Positions 2,002-9,075 of a stretch of DNA of 9,075 bases are shown here, piece by piece. The stretch's first letter is position 1. Each line of letters begins with the position of its first letter. Under the pieces are notes generated by a model. That model was not told the origin of the DNA. It worked only from the letters and a program-made list of their open reading frames with translations, and ran no database searches. The DNA comes from Ignavibacteriales bacterium (lineage in GTDB: Bacteria > Bacteroidota > Ignavibacteria > T3Sed10-11): positions 1-9,075 of the forward strand of contig PWJF01000254.1 in NCBI GenBank assembly GCA_003560935.1. Direction: 5' to 3'. Made by a program: the position numbers and the translations under genes.

Positions 2002-3189
2002 GTGAACTCTACTACCACCCTTATACTCGGCGGTGGATTCGGCGGAATGGCGGCGGCACATACACTCCGCTCTCTTTTGCCGCTCGAACATAAAATTATC
2101 CTCGTTGATAAATCACCTTACTTCATCGTCGGTGCAACCAAAACATGGGTAATGCTCGGTACAAAAAATGCCGGGGAAATAACCGCTCAACGGGAAAAGA
2201 TACTTCCACAAAATGTTGCATTTGTAGAATCCGATATTCACACGATCGATAGTAAAAGCGGTGAAGTGGAAACAAGCCGTGGCGGATATCGCGGTGATTT
2301 TATGATCATTGCATTGGGTGCGGATTTGAATATGGGAGCGATCCCCGGACTTGACAGCGCAGCACATACATTTTATACCGTCGGCGATGCGATGAGACTT
2401 CAGGTTGAATTGCAGGAGTTTACAAAGGGAGACATCGTTTTTCTCATTCCGCGCATTCCGTTTAAGTGTCCTCCCGCACCATACGAAGCTGCATTAATGC
2501 TCGATCATCATTATACGCGTCTCAATGTCCGCGATCAAATTTCTATATCGATATATACGGTGGAACCCGGTCCGATGTCGACCGCAGGGCCGGAAATAAG
2601 TTCTTTTGTACGCGGTATGATTGAAGAACGTAACATCGGCTATCATCCGTTGAAACAAACCGAATCGATAGATGAAAAGCGCCGAACCATTACCTTTAAT
2701 GACGGCAGCGAAAAAAGGTATGAAGTGCTCATTGCGGTTCCTCCTCATCAGGTGCCGGAGGTCATTTTAAAGGCCGGGCTTTGCAACGATAGCGGTTGGA
2801 TACCGGTTGATCCGAAAACAATGAAAGTTACATCTCAAAAAAGTAATATTCCCCTTTATGCAATTGGAGATAATACAGTAGTACCGCTTCCGGGTCGATA
2901 TAAACCCGATAAACCGCTCGTGCTGCCGAAAGCGGGCGTGTTTGCCGCATCTCACGGAATTATTGCCGCAAAACAAATTGCAGCGGCCATTAAAGGAGAA
3001 ACCGGGCATGATGAGTTCGACGGAAAGGGGTACTGCTACATCGAAACCGGCGGTGAAGAGGCATTAAAAGGTGAGGGATCGTTTTTTGAATTGCCGCACC
3101 CGCGGATGGATCGGCGAATGCCGGATAAGGAACAGTATCAGGATAAGATAGGGTGGATAGAGGGTTGGTTGCATGGGAAGATTGTTTGA
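2002..3189 (+). CDS. Sulfide:quinone oxidoreductase-like FAD protein
   Basis: A 395-residue two-dinucleotide-domain flavoprotein of the SQR / flavocytochrome c sulfide dehydrogenase-like group. Characterised members oxidise sulfide and pass electrons to quinone at the inner face of the membrane. Seen here: the N-terminal FAD motif GGGFGG (10-15), KCPPAPYE at 155-162 with Cys156, a second FAD contact YAIGDN at 286-291, and Cys345 in GKGYCYIETG near the end. Cys156 and Cys345 sit where SQRs carry the two redox cysteines that handle sulfur next to the flavin. A third cysteine seen in many SQRs, about 30 residues before the first, is absent. Cys261 lies elsewhere. The GTG start at 2002 is supported by GGAG at 1991-1994, seven bases upstream. 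No transmembrane helix is visible, so attachment would be peripheral. A type II NADH dehydrogenase is the main alternative, but the KCPPAPYE motif argues for SQR-like. Sulfide as substrate is not proven. Confidence 0.8.
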   Translation: MNSTTTLILGGGFGGMAAAHTLRSLLPLEHKIILVDKSPYFIVGATKTWVMLGTKNAGEITAQREKILPQNVAFVESDIHTIDSKSGEVETSRGGYRGDFMIIALGADLNMGAIPGLDSAAHTFYTVGDAMRLQVELQEFTKGDIVFLIPRIPFKCPPAPYEAALMLDHHYTRLNVRDQISISIYTVEPGPMSTAGPEISSFVRGMIEERNIGYHPLKQTESIDEKRRTITFNDGSEKRYEVLIAVPPHQVPEVILKAGLCNDSGWIPVDPKTMKVTSQKSNIPLYAIGDNTVVPLPGRYKPDKPLVLPKAGVFAASHGIIAAKQIAAAIKGETGHDEFDGKGYCYIETGGEEALKGEGSFFELPHPRMDRRMPDKEQYQDKIGWIEGWLHGKIV

Positions 3190-3234: not shown

Positions 3235-3323
3235 GGAGAGGTGGCAGAGCCTGGTTGAACGCGCCGCACTCGAAATGCGGTATACCCTTCGTGGTATCGG
3301 GGGTTCGAATCCCTCCCTCTCCG
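3235..3323 (+). tRNA. tRNA-Ser (anticodon CGA)
   Basis: An 89-nt type II tRNA. The acceptor stem is GGAGAGG (3235-3241) with CCTCTCC (3316-3322) and discriminator G at 3323. The anticodon stem CCGCA/TGCGG (3264-3268, 3276-3280) holds the 7-base loop CTCGAAA, giving anticodon CGA at 3271-3273, which reads the serine codon UCG. The long variable arm (ATACC/GGTAT stem, 3282-3297) is the serine/leucine-type hallmark. The T-arm is GGGGG-TTCGAAT-CCCTC (3299-3315). The 3' CCA is not encoded, because CGC follows the acceptor/discriminator, so CCA must be added by nucleotidyltransferase. Confidence 0.97.
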
Positions 3324-3324
3324 C
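3308..3324 (+). repeat. 17-bp direct repeat, copy 1 (tRNA-Ser 3' end)
   Basis: The 17 bases from the second half of the T-loop to one base past the discriminator of tRNA-Ser recur exactly 107 bases downstream at 3415-3431. This portion of a tRNA is the usual core of integrase attachment sites. Confidence 0.9.
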
Positions 3325-3555: not shown

Positions 3556-4293
3556 ATGTCAAATTATACTGGACGCAGAGATTTCATGAAAACTTCCGCA
3601 CTGGGGGCATTGTCACTCGGTGTAGCGGGGAGCGGGCTCGCTGCAGGTTCATCACTCGCAGCAGAATCATCCATTACTACAGGATCGAATCTCGAGTACC
3701 GATTCGAAGCAAAGCCGCTAAAAGAATCGACGCTCACAATGGACGGTATCTCACGAAAAACAATGGAAGAACATTTTAAGCTGTATCAGGGATACGTGAA
3801 CAAATCAAACGAGATACTCGGATTATTAAAAACCGCCGACCCCGGAAAAGGGAATCAGATCTATAGCGATATTCGCGTATTAAAACATGAACTCACATTC
3901 GCCATCGGCGGTGTGAAGAATCACGAAATTTATTTCGACCATCTCGGCGGTAAAGGCGGACGCCCGGAGGGACAACTCCTTGCCGATATCGAAGAGAACT
4001 TCGGCAGCTTCGATGCCTGGGCGGCTGATCTTAAAGGAACCGGCATTGCAGCACGCGGATGGGTCTGGTTGGCATACGATCACGACACCGGAACATTGTT
4101 CAACTATCTCGGCGATGCGCAAAATACATTTCCGGTGTGGAATGCAACAGCCATACTCGCACTCGACACGTATGAACATGCGTACTTTATCGACTATGCC
4201 GTCAACCGCGGCGCGTATATTGATGCGTTCATGAAAAATATAGATTGGGCGGCAGTAGAAAAGAGATACGATGCTATTCCGAAGAAATCTTAA
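3556..4293 (+). CDS. Tat-exported Fe/Mn superoxide dismutase
   Basis: A 245-residue superoxide dismutase that converts superoxide to oxygen and hydrogen peroxide. Residues 1-36 form a twin-arginine signal: GRRDFMK (6-12), then an Ala/Gly/Leu-rich hydrophobic stretch with probable cleavage near LAA-E (34-37). The folded, metal-loaded enzyme is therefore predicted to be exported. The metal ligands are all present: His73 (EEHF), His123 (KNHEIYF), and Asp204 and His208 (DTYEHAYFIDY). Tyr80 matches the active-site gateway Tyr34 of classical enzymes. GG before VKNH and Gln189 (DAQN) place the outer-sphere glutamine in the C-terminal domain, as in Mn-type enzymes, so manganese or cambialistic use is likelier than strict iron (inference). 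The usual HHxxHH helix is altered to HFKLYQGY, losing the second-shell His30 and His31. Tyr206 replaces the common Trp of the DVWEHAY motif. The start is backed by GGAGG at 3544-3548. Cytosolic peroxide-removing genes follow. Confidence 0.95.
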   Translation: MSNYTGRRDFMKTSALGALSLGVAGSGLAAGSSLAAESSITTGSNLEYRFEAKPLKESTLTMDGISRKTMEEHFKLYQGYVNKSNEILGLLKTADPGKGNQIYSDIRVLKHELTFAIGGVKNHEIYFDHLGGKGGRPEGQLLADIEENFGSFDAWAADLKGTGIAARGWVWLAYDHDTGTLFNYLGDAQNTFPVWNATAILALDTYEHAYFIDYAVNRGAYIDAFMKNIDWAAVEKRYDAIPKKS

Positions 4294-4330
4294 ATCTCAA
4301 ATCATTCATTATCAATGAAAGGACTGTATC

Positions 4331-4537
4331 GTGAGTACCTATTATGAAAAGCTCGAGATTGTCGGCGTCTCATCAAAATCGTATGAAGATGCAATTCAAA
4401 ACGCAGTACATGAAGCAAAGAATAGGTTCAGCGAACTGCGATGGTTTGAGGTAGTTGAGTTCCGGGGTGGTATCACCGACGATGAAAGTATTCAATATCA
4501 GATTGTTTTAAAGATAGCGGCGAAAAAAGGAAACTAA
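4331..4537 (+). CDS. Dodecin, flavin-binding protein
   Basis: A 68-residue dodecin. These small proteins form hollow dodecamers that bind riboflavin, FMN or FAD in stacked pairs; they buffer free flavin and protect against its photochemistry. Typical features are the opening strand YYEKLEIVGVSSKSYEDAI, one helix, and the signature LRWFEVVEFRGGI (36-48). In that signature Trp38 is the residue that stacks on the isoalloxazine ring, and Arg45 matches a conserved ligand-contact position. The final strand YQIVLKIAAK ends the fold, and full length is normal. The GTG start at 4331 is supported by AAAGGA at 4317-4322; no ATG is available nearby. The location between a superoxide dismutase and two peroxiredoxins, in a window with several flavoproteins, fits a role in limiting flavin-driven oxidative stress. 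Confidence 0.95.
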   Translation: MSTYYEKLEIVGVSSKSYEDAIQNAVHEAKNRFSELRWFEVVEFRGGITDDESIQYQIVLKIAAKKGN

Positions 4538-4555
4538 TTCGGGAGAGCAGCAATT

Positions 4556-5023
4556 ATGTCGTTGCAGGAAGGGGAAAAAGCCCCCGATTTTGAGTTGTAC
4601 GATACGAATAAAATGAAAGTAACATTAAAAGATGTGCTCGGGAAAAAAGCCGTGCTTGCCTTCTTCCCCGGCGCATTTACCAGTGGATGTACAAAAGAAA
4701 TGTGTACATTCCGTGATCAGCTTTCGGAATTTAATCGACTCGGCGGCCAGGTATACGGCATCAGTGTCGACGGACCCGCTGCAAATAAAGCGTTTACCGA
4801 ACAATATAAGTTGAATTTTCCCGTTCTCAGCGATTTCTCCCGGAATGCTTCAAGAAAATACGGCGGTGTGCATGAAGATTTTTGGGGAGTAAAAGGGTAT
4901 GCGGTAGCCAAACGTTCGGTGTTCGTGCTTGATGAAACCGGTACGGTCGTGTATTCATGGGTAACCGATAATCCGGGCGATCAACCGAATTTCGATGAGA
5001 TCCGGAACGCATTGCACTCATGA
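4556..5023 (+). CDS. Peroxiredoxin, AhpE/BCP-like
   Basis: A 155-residue thiol peroxidase that reduces hydrogen peroxide or organic hydroperoxides. The peroxidatic centre is PGAFTSGCTKEMC, with Cys45 as the attacking cysteine, Thr42 and Pro38 as its conserved partners, and Arg120 (AVAKRSVFVLD) completing the active site. Cys50, five residues after Cys45, is where BCP/PrxQ enzymes carry the resolving cysteine, so an intramolecular disulfide reduced by thioredoxin is likely. The PGAFT form of the motif and the tail SWVTDNPGDQPNFDEI resemble AhpE-like and related proteins more than classical BCP. No signal peptide is present, so it is cytoplasmic. It starts 18 bases after dodecin, with GGGAGAG just upstream. 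It is about the same length as the next gene but clearly a divergent paralogue. Confidence 0.92.
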   Translation: MSLQEGEKAPDFELYDTNKMKVTLKDVLGKKAVLAFFPGAFTSGCTKEMCTFRDQLSEFNRLGGQVYGISVDGPAANKAFTEQYKLNFPVLSDFSRNASRKYGGVHEDFWGVKGYAVAKRSVFVLDETGTVVYSWVTDNPGDQPNFDEIRNALHS

Positions 5024-5087
5024 GAAGCGGATCCGTCGACTCTCGAAATGACGTCACCACTATACAATATTTTTGGAGTAATGAAAC

Positions 5088-5555
5088 ATGCCAGCGTTGA
5101 AGATAGGAGATAAAGCGCCGGATTTCTCGCTGCCGGATCAAACCGGTACGGTACGGTCGCTGAAAGATTTTAAAGGTAAAAAACTTGTATTATATTTTTA
5201 TCCGAAGGATAACACCTCGGGTTGCACGAAAGAAGCGTGTGCTTTTCAGGAAAACCTTGGCGTTTTGAGGAAGAAAGGCGTAGAAGTAGTCGGGGTGAGT
5301 GCCGATAGTGTACGATCGCATGAAAAGTTTGCCGGTAAATATAATTTACAGTTTCCGCTTTTAAGCGACGAGAACAAAGAGATGATCAAAGCATACAATG
5401 TATGGAAAAAGAGGAGAATGTATGGAAAGGAATATATGGGTATTGAGCGCACGACGTACGTAATCGATGAAAGCGGAAGGATCGCTCATATTTTTCCGAA
5501 GGTAATGGTAAACGGACACGTTGAAGAAGTTTCACAGGTGTTGGACGAAAATTAA
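5088..5555 (+). CDS. bcp: Thioredoxin-dependent thiol peroxidase, BCP/PrxQ type
   Basis: A 155-residue bacterioferritin-comigratory-protein-type peroxiredoxin reducing peroxides in the cytoplasm with electrons from thioredoxin. The canonical motif YPKDNTSGCTKEAC is at residues 38-51, with peroxidatic Cys46 and resolving Cys51. The family signature GIERTTYVID (118-127) supplies the active-site Arg121. The start is chosen at 5088, where GGAG (5075-5078) is correctly spaced; an ATG at 5081 is in another frame and stops after 10 codons. It lies 64 bases after the preceding peroxiredoxin and 24 bases before the pterin synthase gene, so oxidative-stress and pterin genes may share a transcript. Confidence 0.95.
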   Translation: MPALKIGDKAPDFSLPDQTGTVRSLKDFKGKKLVLYFYPKDNTSGCTKEACAFQENLGVLRKKGVEVVGVSADSVRSHEKFAGKYNLQFPLLSDENKEMIKAYNVWKKRRMYGKEYMGIERTTYVIDESGRIAHIFPKVMVNGHVEEVSQVLDEN

Positions 5556-5558
5556 TAA

Positions 5559-5579
5559 GGAGGATTCAGGGTAAAGAGG
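5559..5579 (+). promoter_or_regulatory. Unusual ribosome-binding region of the pterin synthase gene
   Basis: A strong GGAGG (5559-5563) sits 16 bases before the ATG at 5580, too far for standard use, while AAAGAGG (5573-5579) directly abuts it. No ATG, GTG or TTG lies in frame between them, and homology to animal PTPS fixes the start at 5580. Translation may need coupling or mRNA folding that brings GGAGG closer. Confidence 0.4.
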
Positions 5580-5987
5580 ATGGTATACGTTACAAGACGG
5601 GCACAGTTTAGCGCATCGCATCGTCTTCACAATCCGAAACTCAGTGAAGAGGAAAACCGACGCATTTACGATAAATGTAATAACCCCAGCGGGCATGGTC
5701 ATAATTATGATGTCGAAGTAACCGTCGCGGGAGAACCCGATCCGGAAACGGGAATGGTGATCGATTTGAAACTATTAAAACGATTAATTCACGAATATGT
5801 TATCGAACAACTCGATCATAAGCACCTGAATTACGACGTTGATTTTATGCGCGATGTTATCCCGACTGCGGAAAATATTGCAATAAAAATATGGGAGCGG
5901 CTTGAACCGCACATCGAGAACGGCAAATTATATTCGGTTAAATTATTTGAATCACAAAACAACTATGTAGATTATCGAGGTCAATAA
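5580..5987 (+). CDS. 6-pyruvoyl-tetrahydropterin synthase (PTPS type)
   Basis: A 135-residue zinc enzyme of the PTPS/QueD family. PTPS removes triphosphate from 7,8-dihydroneopterin triphosphate and makes 6-pyruvoyl-tetrahydropterin, the second step of tetrahydrobiopterin synthesis. Zinc ligands are His14 (FSASHRL), His39 and His41 (GHGHNY). The catalytic triad is Cys33, Asp79 and His80 (QLDHKHL), and Glu124 (KLFES) contacts the pterin. The spacing [11 protein letters not shown], with five residues between the catalytic Cys and the first His, is that of animal PTPS. Bacterial QueD of the queuosine pathway has the shorter CxxxHGH form. SDEEN-like SEEEN (22-26), the block [10 protein letters not shown] and the C-terminal NNYVDYRG also follow the animal enzyme. 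Queuosine-pathway 6-carboxytetrahydropterin synthase activity remains the alternative. The following GTP cyclohydrolase and sepiapterin-reductase-like genes favour biopterin. Confidence 0.9.
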
Positions 5988-5994
5988 AAAGATC

Positions 5995-6579
5995 ATGGAA
6001 GAAACTGCGGTTGTAAATAATACATTGGAAAAAGCGGTACATACAATACTGCTGGAGATTGGCGAGGATCCCGAACGGGAAGGATTGCTTAAAACGCCTC
6101 ACCGCGTAGCCGGAGCGATGGAATTCCTGACATCCGGATACCGGCAGGATGTTCAGCAGGTTCTCAACGGCGCCGTGTTCGAAGAAAAATATAACGAAAT
6201 GGTGATCGTGCGGGATATTGATGTTTTCAGTCTGTGTGAACATCATCTGCTTCCCTTTTACGGACGCGCGCATGTCGCATACATTCCGAACGGAAAAATA
6301 GTCGGATTAAGTAAACTGCCGCGTGTTGTAGATATGTATGCAAAGCGTCTCCAGGTTCAGGAGCGTTTAACACAGCAAATTGCACAGACGCTGTACGACG
6401 TGCTGCAACCCGACGGCGTGGCGGTAGTTATAGAGGCGCGCCACATGTGCATGATGATGCGAGGCGTTGAGAAACAGAATTCTCTCGCCACGACGAGCGC
6501 CATGCTCGGTGTTTTCCAGGAAGACCCGAAGACACGTATGGAATTCCTCAATCTTATTGACCGCCGCACCGCGCTTTAA
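5995..6579 (+). CDS. folE: GTP cyclohydrolase I
   Basis: A 194-residue enzyme that opens and rearranges GTP to 7,8-dihydroneopterin triphosphate, the first step of both folate and biopterin synthesis. [16 protein letters not shown] (23-38) is the conserved N-terminal block. Zinc ligands are Cys81 and His84 (CEHHLLPF) and Cys152 (RHMCMMMRG). His83 and His150 match the catalytic histidines. [21 protein letters not shown] is the pterin-binding signature, with Gln122 in it. This is the zinc-dependent type IA enzyme with all key residues. It begins 7 bases after the PTPS stop, with no clear Shine-Dalgarno sequence of its own, so translational coupling is likely. The order PTPS-folE places its product directly into the biopterin branch, although it could also feed folate. 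Confidence 0.97.
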
Positions 6580-6596
6580 CGGAAAAAGGAGTCATC

Positions 6597-7295
6597 ATGA
6601 ACATATGGGTGACCGGCGCCGGTAAAGGTATCGGAAAAGCCATTGCCGAAGAATTATTACGCGAGGGGCATAAAGTCGCAATCAGTGCCCGGAACCGGGA
6701 GTCCCTCGATTCATTATCGGTCATTACCGCATACAGCGATTCACTGTTCAGAGTGCCGGTGGATGTATCCTCATTTAAGATGGTAAACGATGCCGCTCAA
6801 TTGATTAACGAAAAATTCGGTTCCATCGATGTGCTCATTAATAATGCGGGGGTAACGCAATTCAAGCCGATTATGGACACATCGATTGATGAATTTGACG
6901 AAATAATCGATGTGAATTTAAAGGGTGTGATGTACGGGATGAAAGCGGTACTGCCGTATATGACCGGGAGAAAAACGGGATGGATCATTAATATTATTTC
7001 GGTAACGGTGAATAAAGTCTTTACGAATTCGGGTGCGTATGCTTCTTCCAAAGCCGGTGTTCTTGCACTGACTAATGTGTTACGGGAAGAGGTGAGAGAT
7101 AAAGGAATAAAAGTTACTTCGATCATTCCGGGGGCTACATATACTGAAATGTGGCCCGAAGGTGTTCGGAAAAAATACGGGGAGCGGATGATGCGGCCTG
7201 AAGATATCGGAAAGATAGTCGCTGCCTTACTCCGTTCACCTGAAGACGTTATGATGGAGGAAATCACGGTACGGCCTCGACTGGGGGATTTGTAG
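6597..7295 (+). CDS. Short-chain dehydrogenase, probable sepiapterin reductase (Chlorobium type)
   Basis: A 232-residue classical short-chain dehydrogenase. The NADPH motif TGAGKGIG is at 6-13, NNAG at 82-85, and the catalytic tetrad is Asn107, Ser135, Tyr148 and Lys152 (YASSK). Arg32 after the second strand (SARNR) suggests NADP preference. Several features recall Chlorobium tepidum sepiapterin reductase as I remember it: TGAGKGIG, PGATYTEMW at 178-186, a MMRPEDIG block, and the tail EEITVRPRLGDL. That enzyme reduces both side-chain keto groups of 6-pyruvoyl-tetrahydropterin and yields L-threo-tetrahydrobiopterin. Placement right after PTPS and folE supports the call. GGAG at 6588-6591 sets the start, 17 bases after folE. 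A generic 3-oxoacyl reductase is the alternative. The stereochemistry of the product cannot be read from sequence. Confidence 0.78.
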   Translation: MNIWVTGAGKGIGKAIAEELLREGHKVAISARNRESLDSLSVITAYSDSLFRVPVDVSSFKMVNDAAQLINEKFGSIDVLINNAGVTQFKPIMDTSIDEFDEIIDVNLKGVMYGMKAVLPYMTGRKTGWIINIISVTVNKVFTNSGAYASSKAGVLALTNVLREEVRDKGIKVTSIIPGATYTEMWPEGVRKKYGERMMRPEDIGKIVAALLRSPEDVMMEEITVRPRLGDL

Positions 7296-7373
7296 AAGTG
7301 GAGGGGTTTTATAGACCGATGAATAGTTGTTTTTTAATCAATGAGCGAAGCGAATTAATATTAAAGGGTATGT

Positions 7374-8081
7374 ATGTCTTTACAAGGTCAAGTAGCAATT
7401 ATAACGGGAGCGAGTAAAGGTATCGGAAAAGCAATTGCGCTGTCGTTTGCGAAAGAGAAGATGAAGGTTGCTCTCGCGGCGCGAACGAAATCCGATCTTG
7501 ATAAAGTAGCGGAGGAAGTAAATAAACTCGGCAGTGAGGCACTCATTGTTCCTGCAGATGTATCACGAGGACAAGCCGTCGATCACTTGATTTCTCAAAC
7601 GCTTGAAAATTTCGGGAAAATTGACGTCCTTATCAACAATGCGGGAATGGGTGTATTTGCACCCGTCGATGAATTGTCGACGCAGGATTTTGACCGCATG
7701 TTTGCAATCAATATGCGCAGTGTATTTCTCTGCACACGTGCAGTATTGCCGCATATGAAAAATCAAAAATCGGGTGCGATCATAAATATTTCATCGCTCG
7801 CAGGAAAAAATTTTTTTAAGGGAGGATCCGGTTACGCTGCGACCAAATGGGCATTGAATGGTTTTACGAAGTGCCTCATGCTTGAAGCCCGTGAGTATGA
7901 TATACGCGTTTCGGTTGTCTGTCCGGGATCTGTGGTCACCGACTTTTCGCCGCACAGCGGAAAAGACCCTTCAAAGATATTACAACCGCAGGATGTCGCC
8001 GATTCGGTGCTTGCCATTTTGCGATTACCGCCGAATGCGCTCATGAGCGAGATCGATTTGCGTCCGACCAATCCGAAATAA
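7374..8081 (+). CDS. Second short-chain dehydrogenase, possible pterin reductase
   Basis: A 235-residue classical short-chain dehydrogenase. TGASKGIG is at 11-18, NNAG at 88-91, and the catalytic residues are Asn113, Ser141, Tyr154 and Lys158 (YAATK). Ala-Arg-Thr after the second strand suggests NADPH use. The C-terminal MSEIDLRPTNP echoes the EEI-V-RP tail of the preceding dehydrogenase, so the two probably belong to related subfamilies, though identity is low elsewhere and this is not a recent duplicate. It has its own AAAGGG (7363-7368). A 78-base gap separates it from the preceding gene. Possible roles are a second ketone reduction in biopterin synthesis, a dihydropteridine-type recycling step, or unrelated FabG-like chemistry. 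The context favours pterin, but the substrate is not determined. Confidence 0.7.
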   Translation: MSLQGQVAIITGASKGIGKAIALSFAKEKMKVALAARTKSDLDKVAEEVNKLGSEALIVPADVSRGQAVDHLISQTLENFGKIDVLINNAGMGVFAPVDELSTQDFDRMFAINMRSVFLCTRAVLPHMKNQKSGAIINISSLAGKNFFKGGSGYAATKWALNGFTKCLMLEAREYDIRVSVVCPGSVVTDFSPHSGKDPSKILQPQDVADSVLAILRLPPNALMSEIDLRPTNPK

Positions 8082-8088
8082 AAAAATT

Positions 8089-9075
8089 ATGAACCGATAC
8101 GACGTCACAATAATCGGCGGCGGGCCGACCGGTTTGTTTGCCGCTTTCTACGCAGGTCTGCGCGGTATGACGACCAAAATAATAGATGCGCTTCCGCATC
8201 TGGGTGGTCAGTTAACTGCGCTCTACCCTGAGAAGTATATTTACGATGTCGCCGGTTTTCCGAAAGTCCTTTCAAAAGATCTGGCTCAAAACCTCACCGA
8301 ACAGGCGCTTCAATATAACCCTGCCGTCCATCTCGGTGCAAAGATCACCGATATGCGTATCATTACCGCGGATGAAGCCGATGAAGGAAGACCTTCGAAG
8401 TATTTTGAACTTGATACCGAAGACGGCAGCACCCATCAAACATATTCAATAGTGCTGACGATCGGCATCGGCGCATTCGCACCCCGTAAACTGAATCTCG
8501 AAGATGTACAGAAGTTTGAGGGACAGGGAGTCGATTACTTCGTCAAAGATAAATCCAAATTTAAGAATAAACGTTTGTTGATCGTCGGCGGAGGGGACAG
8601 CGCTGTCGATTGGGGATTGCATTTGCACGAACTTGCCGATTCGATTACCTTAATTCATCGCCGCGACCGGTTCCGTGCACATGAGAAAAGCATCAAGCAA
8701 CTCTTCGATTCTCCGGTTGAGATAAAGATTCCGTATGAAGTAAAAGCCATCCACGGACATTCACGAGTTGAAAAAGTAACCATCATCAACAACAAAACGA
8801 AAGAAGAAGAACAACTCGAGGTCGATCATATTCTGCTGAATCTGGGATTCGTAGCAAACATCGGTAAGATAAAAGAGTGGGGACTCAATATTGTAAAAGG
8901 CGATATTGAAGTGACGAGTAAAATGGAAACGAATGTACCCGGTATTTATGCGGCGGGTGATATTGCAACTTATCCCGGCAAGTTAAAGCTGATCGCGACC
9001 GGTTTCGGTGAGGCAGCGACGTCGGTCAACAACGCGAAAACATACATTGATCCGTCGGCAAAAGCTTTCCCCGGG
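8089..9075 (+). CDS. Ferredoxin/flavodoxin-NADP reductase, thioredoxin-reductase-like, 3' partial
   Basis: The frame is open for 329 codons to the last base of the window; only a short C-terminus should be missing. The protein belongs to the thioredoxin-reductase-like FNR family of Chlorobium and Bacillus (YumC). It moves electrons between NADPH and ferredoxin in the cytoplasm. Seen: the FAD motif GGGPTG (10-15), LGGQLTALYPEKYIYDVAGFP (a family block just after), the NADPH-domain motif GGGDSAVDW (167-175), and the second FAD motif YAAGDIATYPGKLKLI (287 on). The CxxC disulfide of true thioredoxin reductases is absent from the NADPH domain, where VGGGDSAVDW continues into LHLHELAD, which confirms the FNR assignment. 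The ATG at 8089 follows the preceding stop by only 7 bases, with an A-rich leader and no Shine-Dalgarno site, suggesting coupling to the dehydrogenase gene. Confidence 0.93.
   Translation, partial: MNRYDVTIIGGGPTGLFAAFYAGLRGMTTKIIDALPHLGGQLTALYPEKYIYDVAGFPKVLSKDLAQNLTEQALQYNPAVHLGAKITDMRIITADEADEGRPSKYFELDTEDGSTHQTYSIVLTIGIGAFAPRKLNLEDVQKFEGQGVDYFVKDKSKFKNKRLLIVGGGDSAVDWGLHLHELADSITLIHRRDRFRAHEKSIKQLFDSPVEIKIPYEVKAIHGHSRVEKVTIINNKTKEEEQLEVDHILLNLGFVANIGKIKEWGLNIVKGDIEVTSKMETNVPGIYAAGDIATYPGKLKLIATGFGEAATSVNNAKTYIDPSAKAFPG

Follow-up and report, generated by a model that had tools for sequence, protein, structure and literature searches.

A predicted tetrahydrobiopterin operon beside peroxiredoxin genes in an Ignavibacteriales genome

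We analyzed a stretch of 9,075 nucleotides (hereafter the window) from an Ignavibacteriales bacterium (contig PWJF01000254.1, assembly GCA_003560935.1), in which genes for a 6-pyruvoyltetrahydropterin synthase (PTPS), a GTP cyclohydrolase I (FolE), and a short-chain dehydrogenase/reductase (SDR1) lie in tandem. The operon probably turns GTP into tetrahydrobiopterin (BH4), likely in its L-threo form; the cofactor would serve redox protection alongside the peroxiredoxins of the operon, and not an aromatic amino acid hydroxylase. An earlier note, made from the letters of this DNA, had proposed that three consecutive genes cover the route from GTP to BH4, and BH4 synthesis by the cluster is indeed well supported by inference from protein families, a PTPS motif, a tree, and the residues of SDR1. 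FolE would yield 7,8-dihydroneopterin triphosphate, PTPS would yield 6-pyruvoyl-tetrahydropterin, and SDR1 would reduce both side-chain carbonyls with NADPH, with L-threo-BH4 as the likely product. The redox or antioxidant role is what we infer the cofactor perhaps to have. Bacterial BH4 synthesis is a known kind of system, to which the cluster adds a new member; the portion of PMC5041015 available to us counted, in 2016, about 50 bacterial proteins of the PTPS family predicted to act in it.

The type of the PTPS is central to this assignment, as the same family (PF01242) also contains QueD and the PTPS-III enzymes of a folate bypass. Among the solved structures that we compared, we take 1b66 and 2g64 to be the PTPS of rat and of C. 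elegans, and 1is7 and 1fb1 to be the GTP cyclohydrolase I (GTPCH-I) of rat and of human. The window PTPS matches 1b66 at E 2.5e-44 and shares 69 of 132 residues (52%) with rat PTPS, versus 36 of 120 with the QueD of a genome of the same genus (G002). At residues 32-43 it carries the motif C-x5-HGH, and CxxxxxHGH is given as the signature of the BH4-making PTPS-II, with ExxHGH for PTPS-III, in the same portion of PMC5041015. The spacing is therefore of the animal type and not that of QueD, as had been noted before, where “animal-type” denotes PTPS-II spacing and not descent from animals. The catalytic residues, also described earlier as intact, match rat PTPS at H14, C33, H39, H41, D79, H80, and E124; QueD has the same zinc and catalytic residues, which therefore show only that the PTPS looks intact.

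In a tree of 127 rows, a branch of 94/88 (not starred) separated all nine QueD rows from the PTPS of the window, of rat, and of C. elegans, and the QueD rows grouped together in 98% of the 200 bootstrap trees. The grouping with QueD that the earlier note had named as its counter-case thus did not occur. The rat and C. elegans proteins were nearest to Acidobacteria copies (92/92). All nine QueD copies examined in the class read C-x3-HGH, and the window PTPS has neither this CxxxHGH motif nor queC or queE as neighbors. In two genomes of the same genus (G002 and G005), a separate short PF01242 gene, the QueD, adjoins queC, a radical-SAM-like gene (27.0 bits, below the Pfam cut-off of 29.5), and another small gene, which is the expected queuosine cluster, at a locus apart from that of the window-type PTPS. 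In the window genome (2.95 Mb in 574 contigs, 79.1% complete), we found no queC and no second PF01242 match, which may be explained by the incompleteness of the assembly; queC was not found in G003 and G004 either. Taken together, the motif, identity, and tree position predict that the window PTPS is a BH4-type PTPS-II that makes 6-pyruvoyl-tetrahydropterin.

Two kinds of relatives showed departures from this pattern. The proteins of loci L097 (genome G054) and L098 (genome G009) are 46-53% identical to the window PTPS yet read C-x3-HGH, and are possibly intermediate or converted enzymes. Ten Acidobacteria-type loci (L048, L065, L068, L070, L071, L072, and L076-L079) carry a tandem PTPS pair, the first copy being 57-60% and the second 44-55% identical to the window protein; the copies fall into two separate clades, FolE comes next in 9 of the 10, and one copy may have taken on a new role. 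From the motif and residue comparison, we excluded loci L001, L082-L087, and L090-L096, which duplicate other rows or are hydroxylase loci (L094 and L095 were excluded along with these), as well as PTPS proteins of at most 105 amino acids and SDR proteins of at most 200.

The reductase step was evaluated at six positions of the Chlorobium tepidum sepiapterin reductase (structure 2bd0): F99, S145, Y158, K162, W196, and D240. SDR1 retains all six, while the second short-chain dehydrogenase/reductase of the window, SDR2, retains only the first four. A search of the window genome gave 11 SDR matches, namely SDR1, SDR2, seven others that we compared, and two weaker ones that were left out (E 7.5e-7 and 1.5e-6); among the nine examined, SDR1 is unique in retaining all six, and the Phe, Trp, and Asp occur together in none of the seven others. 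The catalytic Ser-Tyr-Lys triad of SDR1 (S135, Y148, K152), which the earlier note had reported as present, is also found in all seven and thus carries little weight alone. F89 and W186 of SDR1, corresponding to Phe-99 and Trp-196, show no variation across 37 aligned rows of near relatives, and the two occur together in none of the seven. Beyond this genome, all six positions are retained in 42 of the 77 SDR rows taken from the loci (C. tepidum sepiapterin reductase and SDR1 counted) and in 118 of 120 SDR1 relatives among the matches listed (window entry counted), which are near relatives by construction. According to the title of a 2008 paper, Phe-99 and Trp-196 of the C. tepidum enzyme are reportedly tied to L-threo-BH4. 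Since SDR1 has the C. tepidum residues, the threo isomer is the likely one, and the accessible part of PMC5683033 describes L-threo-BH4 as a product of C. tepidum. Against this assignment, SDR2 matches the C. tepidum enzyme with a score no lower than that of SDR1, and neither tree nor fold decides: in the SDR tree, 2bd0 sits outside the SDR1 clade, on a long branch with a weak fork (64/44), and the fold comparison does not single out SDR1 as a sepiapterin reductase. The description of a sepiapterin-reductase-like dehydrogenase is accordingly backed by the retained residues of SDR1 and not by fold or tree, and we regard SDR1 as a predicted sepiapterin reductase of the C. tepidum type.

The gene set is widespread in the class. 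A window-type PTPS (at least 46% identity) was found in 54 of the 61 genomes of our class sample, where genomes and loci are related and counts are hence not independent. The motif was read for the fetched loci and not for all 54 genomes; without G009 and G054, with their C-x3-HGH copies, the PTPS count becomes 52 of 61, and the count of PTPS genomes lacking a known user (see below) 20 rather than 21. Among the named loci, which are the best 80 of a longer list, 73 have 1.2 kb or more of DNA downstream of PTPS; in 69 of these, FolE lies on the same strand within 1 kb, so the PTPS-FolE pairing is more than chance. The FolE match had just 36-44% identity in 15 of the 74 FolE-bearing loci. Of the 63 named loci in which FolE is present and the downstream DNA extends 2.2 kb or more, 36 have an SDR no further than 700 bp past FolE.

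Besides the pathway genes, peroxiredoxin is the most recurrent neighbor, which favors a redox role. Of the 72 named loci whose upstream DNA was long enough, 32 have a peroxiredoxin within 1.3 kb upstream of PTPS. Within the class (L090-L116; the window and the QueD-only loci L088 and L089 left out), a peroxiredoxin gene stands beside PTPS, upstream and on the same strand, in 19 of 27 loci and 6 of 9 families, as compared to none of 26 control loci surrounding queC, pterin-4a-carbinolamine dehydratase (PCD), FolB, and hydroxylase genes. Families f10, f5, and f13 showed no peroxiredoxin neighbor; the link is common, not universal. A peroxiredoxin cluster of open reading frames (ORFs) occurred in 41 of the 80 named loci, and the next unlabelled cluster in 15. 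Nine of the 26 unlabelled clusters among those listed were annotated, with no evident BH4 user among them. Seven were PhoH, YbeY, RNase HII, a sigma factor, NDK, an amidohydrolase, and a heavy-metal-resistance protein, and one had no family. The ninth was a family 2 glycosyltransferase, which lies just upstream of PTPS in locus L079 and whose cluster spans 9 loci.

The absence of an aromatic amino acid hydroxylase or nitric oxide (NO) synthase, which the earlier note had described for the DNA at hand, was strengthened by genome searches. Neither the hydroxylase (PF00351) nor NO synthase (PF02898) was matched in any of the six draft genomes of the genus; in the class sample, the hydroxylase occurred in 6 of 61 genomes, every one from family f2, and NO synthase in none of 61. 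The fatty-acid-hydroxylase family (PF04116), to which AGMO presumably belongs, was found in 39 of 61 class genomes, with the caveat that its members need not use BH4, and in none of the six of the genus. In total, 21 of the 54 PTPS genomes, all six of the genus included, lack all three user families, and thus hydroxylation need not be the reason for keeping the pathway. Fourteen of these 21 genomes are at least 95% complete, and if a user gene were present in all six genus genomes, the chance of missing it in every one through incompleteness alone would be ~1.4e-5, assuming independence.

One could imagine that BH4 instead serves a monooxygenase of an unrecognised family, with PCD elsewhere in the genome recycling the hydroxylated cofactor, which we consider possible though rather unlikely. 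Five of the 6 genus genomes do have PCD, as do 20 of the 21 PTPS genomes without the three user families, but PCD is equally common without a window-type PTPS (6 of 7 genomes versus 48 of 54 with it), and we dropped it as a sign of a hidden hydroxylase. Furthermore, the six annotated PCD neighbors in G005 (patatin/Omp85, methyltransferase, radical SAM, TPR, phosphoribosyltransferase, and NUDIX proteins) include no evident hydroxylase, and a role of PCD in molybdenum cofactor (Moco) metabolism is listed in the part of PMC3223725 that was accessible. As separate observations, the window genome carries PCD at G000:C177:9461-9727 (L142) and has no hydroxylase match, and the PCD of the genus adjoins a radical SAM gene, with a methyltransferase gene one further.

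Biopterin might also be stored or exported as a glycoside that takes part in light or electron transport, comparable to tepidopterin in C. tepidum, but this appears improbable. The accessible sections of PMC5683033 and PMC3546692 do describe the formation of L-threo-biopterin N-acetylglucosamine in C. tepidum by a dedicated transferase, but neither the scanned genes of the window nor 20 annotated neighbor proteins from the genus include a glycosyltransferase, the whole genome not having been searched for CtPGT. BchB, our single photosynthesis marker, matched in none of the 61 class genomes, which makes photosynthesis unlikely as the reason for the pathway.

A reading of the PTPS as QueD or as an enzyme of the folate bypass that stands beside folE by chance, next to SDRs that are unrelated fatty-acid-type reductases, is very unlikely, given the separation of the PTPS from QueD by motif, identity, and tree, the separate QueD-queC locus in G002 and G005, the sepiapterin-reductase residues of SDR1, and the presence of FolB. 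The last was found in the window genome (G000:C303, E 3.8e-35) and in all five genus relatives and, with the absence of ExxHGH, led us to reject the PTPS-III folate bypass. What speaks for such an enzyme is that the window PTPS is the sole PF01242 match in a 79% complete genome, that a single FolE must also serve folate, and that databases use the name 6-carboxytetrahydropterin synthase for its relatives. A search of four genus genomes (the window genome included) found one FolE in each, so the FolE of the operon must also feed folate; both class relatives searched have two copies. The public name is attached to P0070, P0074, P0094, and P0104, which are 63-69% identical to the window PTPS; it is likely wrong for these relatives and would mislead queuosine predictions.

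A BH4 operon with a role in redox protection is also suggested by the wider gene row, since in the genus this row holds superoxide dismutase, a second peroxiredoxin, dodecin, and a ferredoxin-NADP reductase (FNR). Nine plus-strand genes at 3556-9075 are spaced by 7 to 78 bases (Table 1), with gaps of 7 bases between PTPS and FolE and 17 bases between FolE and SDR1. ORF coordinates and Pfam matches agree with the tandem and gaps that the earlier note had given. Its three-gene cluster at 5580-8081 stands as far as the three genes are concerned, but this span also covers SDR2, which had not been separated, and the same-strand row is longer, reaching from superoxide dismutase to the FNR that is truncated by the window end.

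Table 1. Same-strand gene row of the window
Feature	Position	Strand	Evidence and remarks
Fe/Mn superoxide dismutase	3556..4293	+	Pfam Sod_Fe_C E 2.5e-25; opens the same-strand row in the genus
Dodecin, small flavin-binding protein	4331..4537	+	Pfam Dodecin E 2.2e-19; also found in L137-L140
Peroxiredoxin 1, AhpC/TSA family	4556..5023	+	Pfam AhpC-TSA E 7.8e-37
Peroxiredoxin 2 (Prx2), PrxQ/Bcp type	5088..5555	+	Pfam AhpC-TSA E 1.1e-43; ends 24 bases 5′ of PTPS
6-Pyruvoyltetrahydropterin synthase, predicted PTPS-II (C-x5-HGH)	5580..5987	+	PF01242 E 1.5e-38
GTP cyclohydrolase I (FolE)	5995..6579	+	PF01227 (GTP_cyclohydroI) E 1.7e-80
SDR1, predicted Chlorobium tepidum-type sepiapterin reductase	6597..7295	+	adh_short E 1.7e-53; 2bd0 E 1.2e-33
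SDR2, second SDR	7374..8081	+	Pfam adh_short E 3.3e-64; signature FSYKSK; without W196 and D240 equivalents
Ferredoxin-NADP reductase (FNR), thioredoxin-reductase-like type	8089..9075	+	6gas E 1.8e-108, best solved match; 3′ end beyond the window

The order Prx2-PTPS-FolE-SDR1-SDR2-FNR is preserved in the five other genomes of the genus; in L138 and L139, FolE and SDR1 were masked by the ORF filter, and tblastn recovers both in L092 and L093, which are shorter loci from these genomes. Superoxide dismutase is found at the matching place in L137, L138, and L139, which are all the genus loci that extend that far, and FNR keeps its position in L137-L141. A related gene follows 3′ of FNR in the loci that reach far enough (L137, L138, and L139), annotated as a D-2-hydroxyacid dehydrogenase in L137. 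Prx2 scored 153.3 bits against the thiol peroxidase model NF006960, exceeding the cut-off of 140. Counts from a promoter and terminator scan were close to the shuffled expectation, and co-transcription is therefore argued from spacing alone. Upstream of the row, the window contains a geranylgeranyl-reductase-like gene (1010-1963), followed by a flavoprotein (2002-3189) whose nearest model is type III sulfide:quinone reductase (E 8.7e-56, far below the model cut-off), and a tRNA-Ser with anticodon CGA (3235-3324) that separates the two gene groups.

In the redox role that we propose, reduced biopterin might be kept available as a small molecule that donates electrons or scavenges radicals, which is the most speculative part of the scheme. 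The peroxiredoxins and superoxide dismutase would deal with the peroxide and superoxide that accompany biopterin oxidation, and SDR2 or FNR would perhaps supply electrons for its re-reduction. That BH4 has cytoprotective and antioxidant effects on animal cells is described in the available part of a review (PMC10215290), and we encountered no bacterial counterpart. A bolder version, to which we give only tentative credence, is that an apparently non-phototrophic class makes L-threo-BH4 as a peroxiredoxin-coupled redox metabolite with no hydroxylase as user, and that synthesis, re-reduction (SDR2 and FNR), and peroxide clearance (two peroxiredoxins and superoxide dismutase) are brought together in one operon. 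A literature search that covered few subscription journals, with hits viewed in part, returned nothing that joins biopterin with Ignavibacteri* and nothing on the operon. The function of biopterin in bacteria is a question of long standing, and its synthesis genes are kept in most of the class genomes that we sampled; the recurrent peroxiredoxin neighbor offers a testable lead on this function.

Compared with known systems, the operon most closely invites comparison with BH4 synthesis in C. tepidum, where the same chemistry is expected and with which SDR1 shares F99, the Ser-Tyr-Lys triad, W196, and D240. It differs in that SDR1 is identical to the C. tepidum enzyme at 81 of 228 residues, in that the operon holds peroxiredoxin, superoxide dismutase, dodecin, and FNR genes, with no glycosyltransferase among the nearby genes annotated, and in that the class sample is without a BchB match. 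The PTPS and FolE families are both close to solved proteins of the animal pathway (GTPCH-I, PTPS, and SPR), with FolE matching 1is7 at E 2.9e-74, whereas the window reductase resembles the C. tepidum kind, likely yielding the threo isomer, and the genus shows no match to the aromatic amino acid hydroxylase, NO synthase, or fatty-acid-hydroxylase families. With QueD (PTPS-I), the window PTPS has in common the PF01242 family and the same zinc and catalytic residues, but QueD has C-x3-HGH in place of C-x5-HGH. The PTPS-III enzymes of the folate bypass likewise belong to PF01242, and differ by their ExxHGH motif, which the window PTPS lacks in a genome that has FolB.

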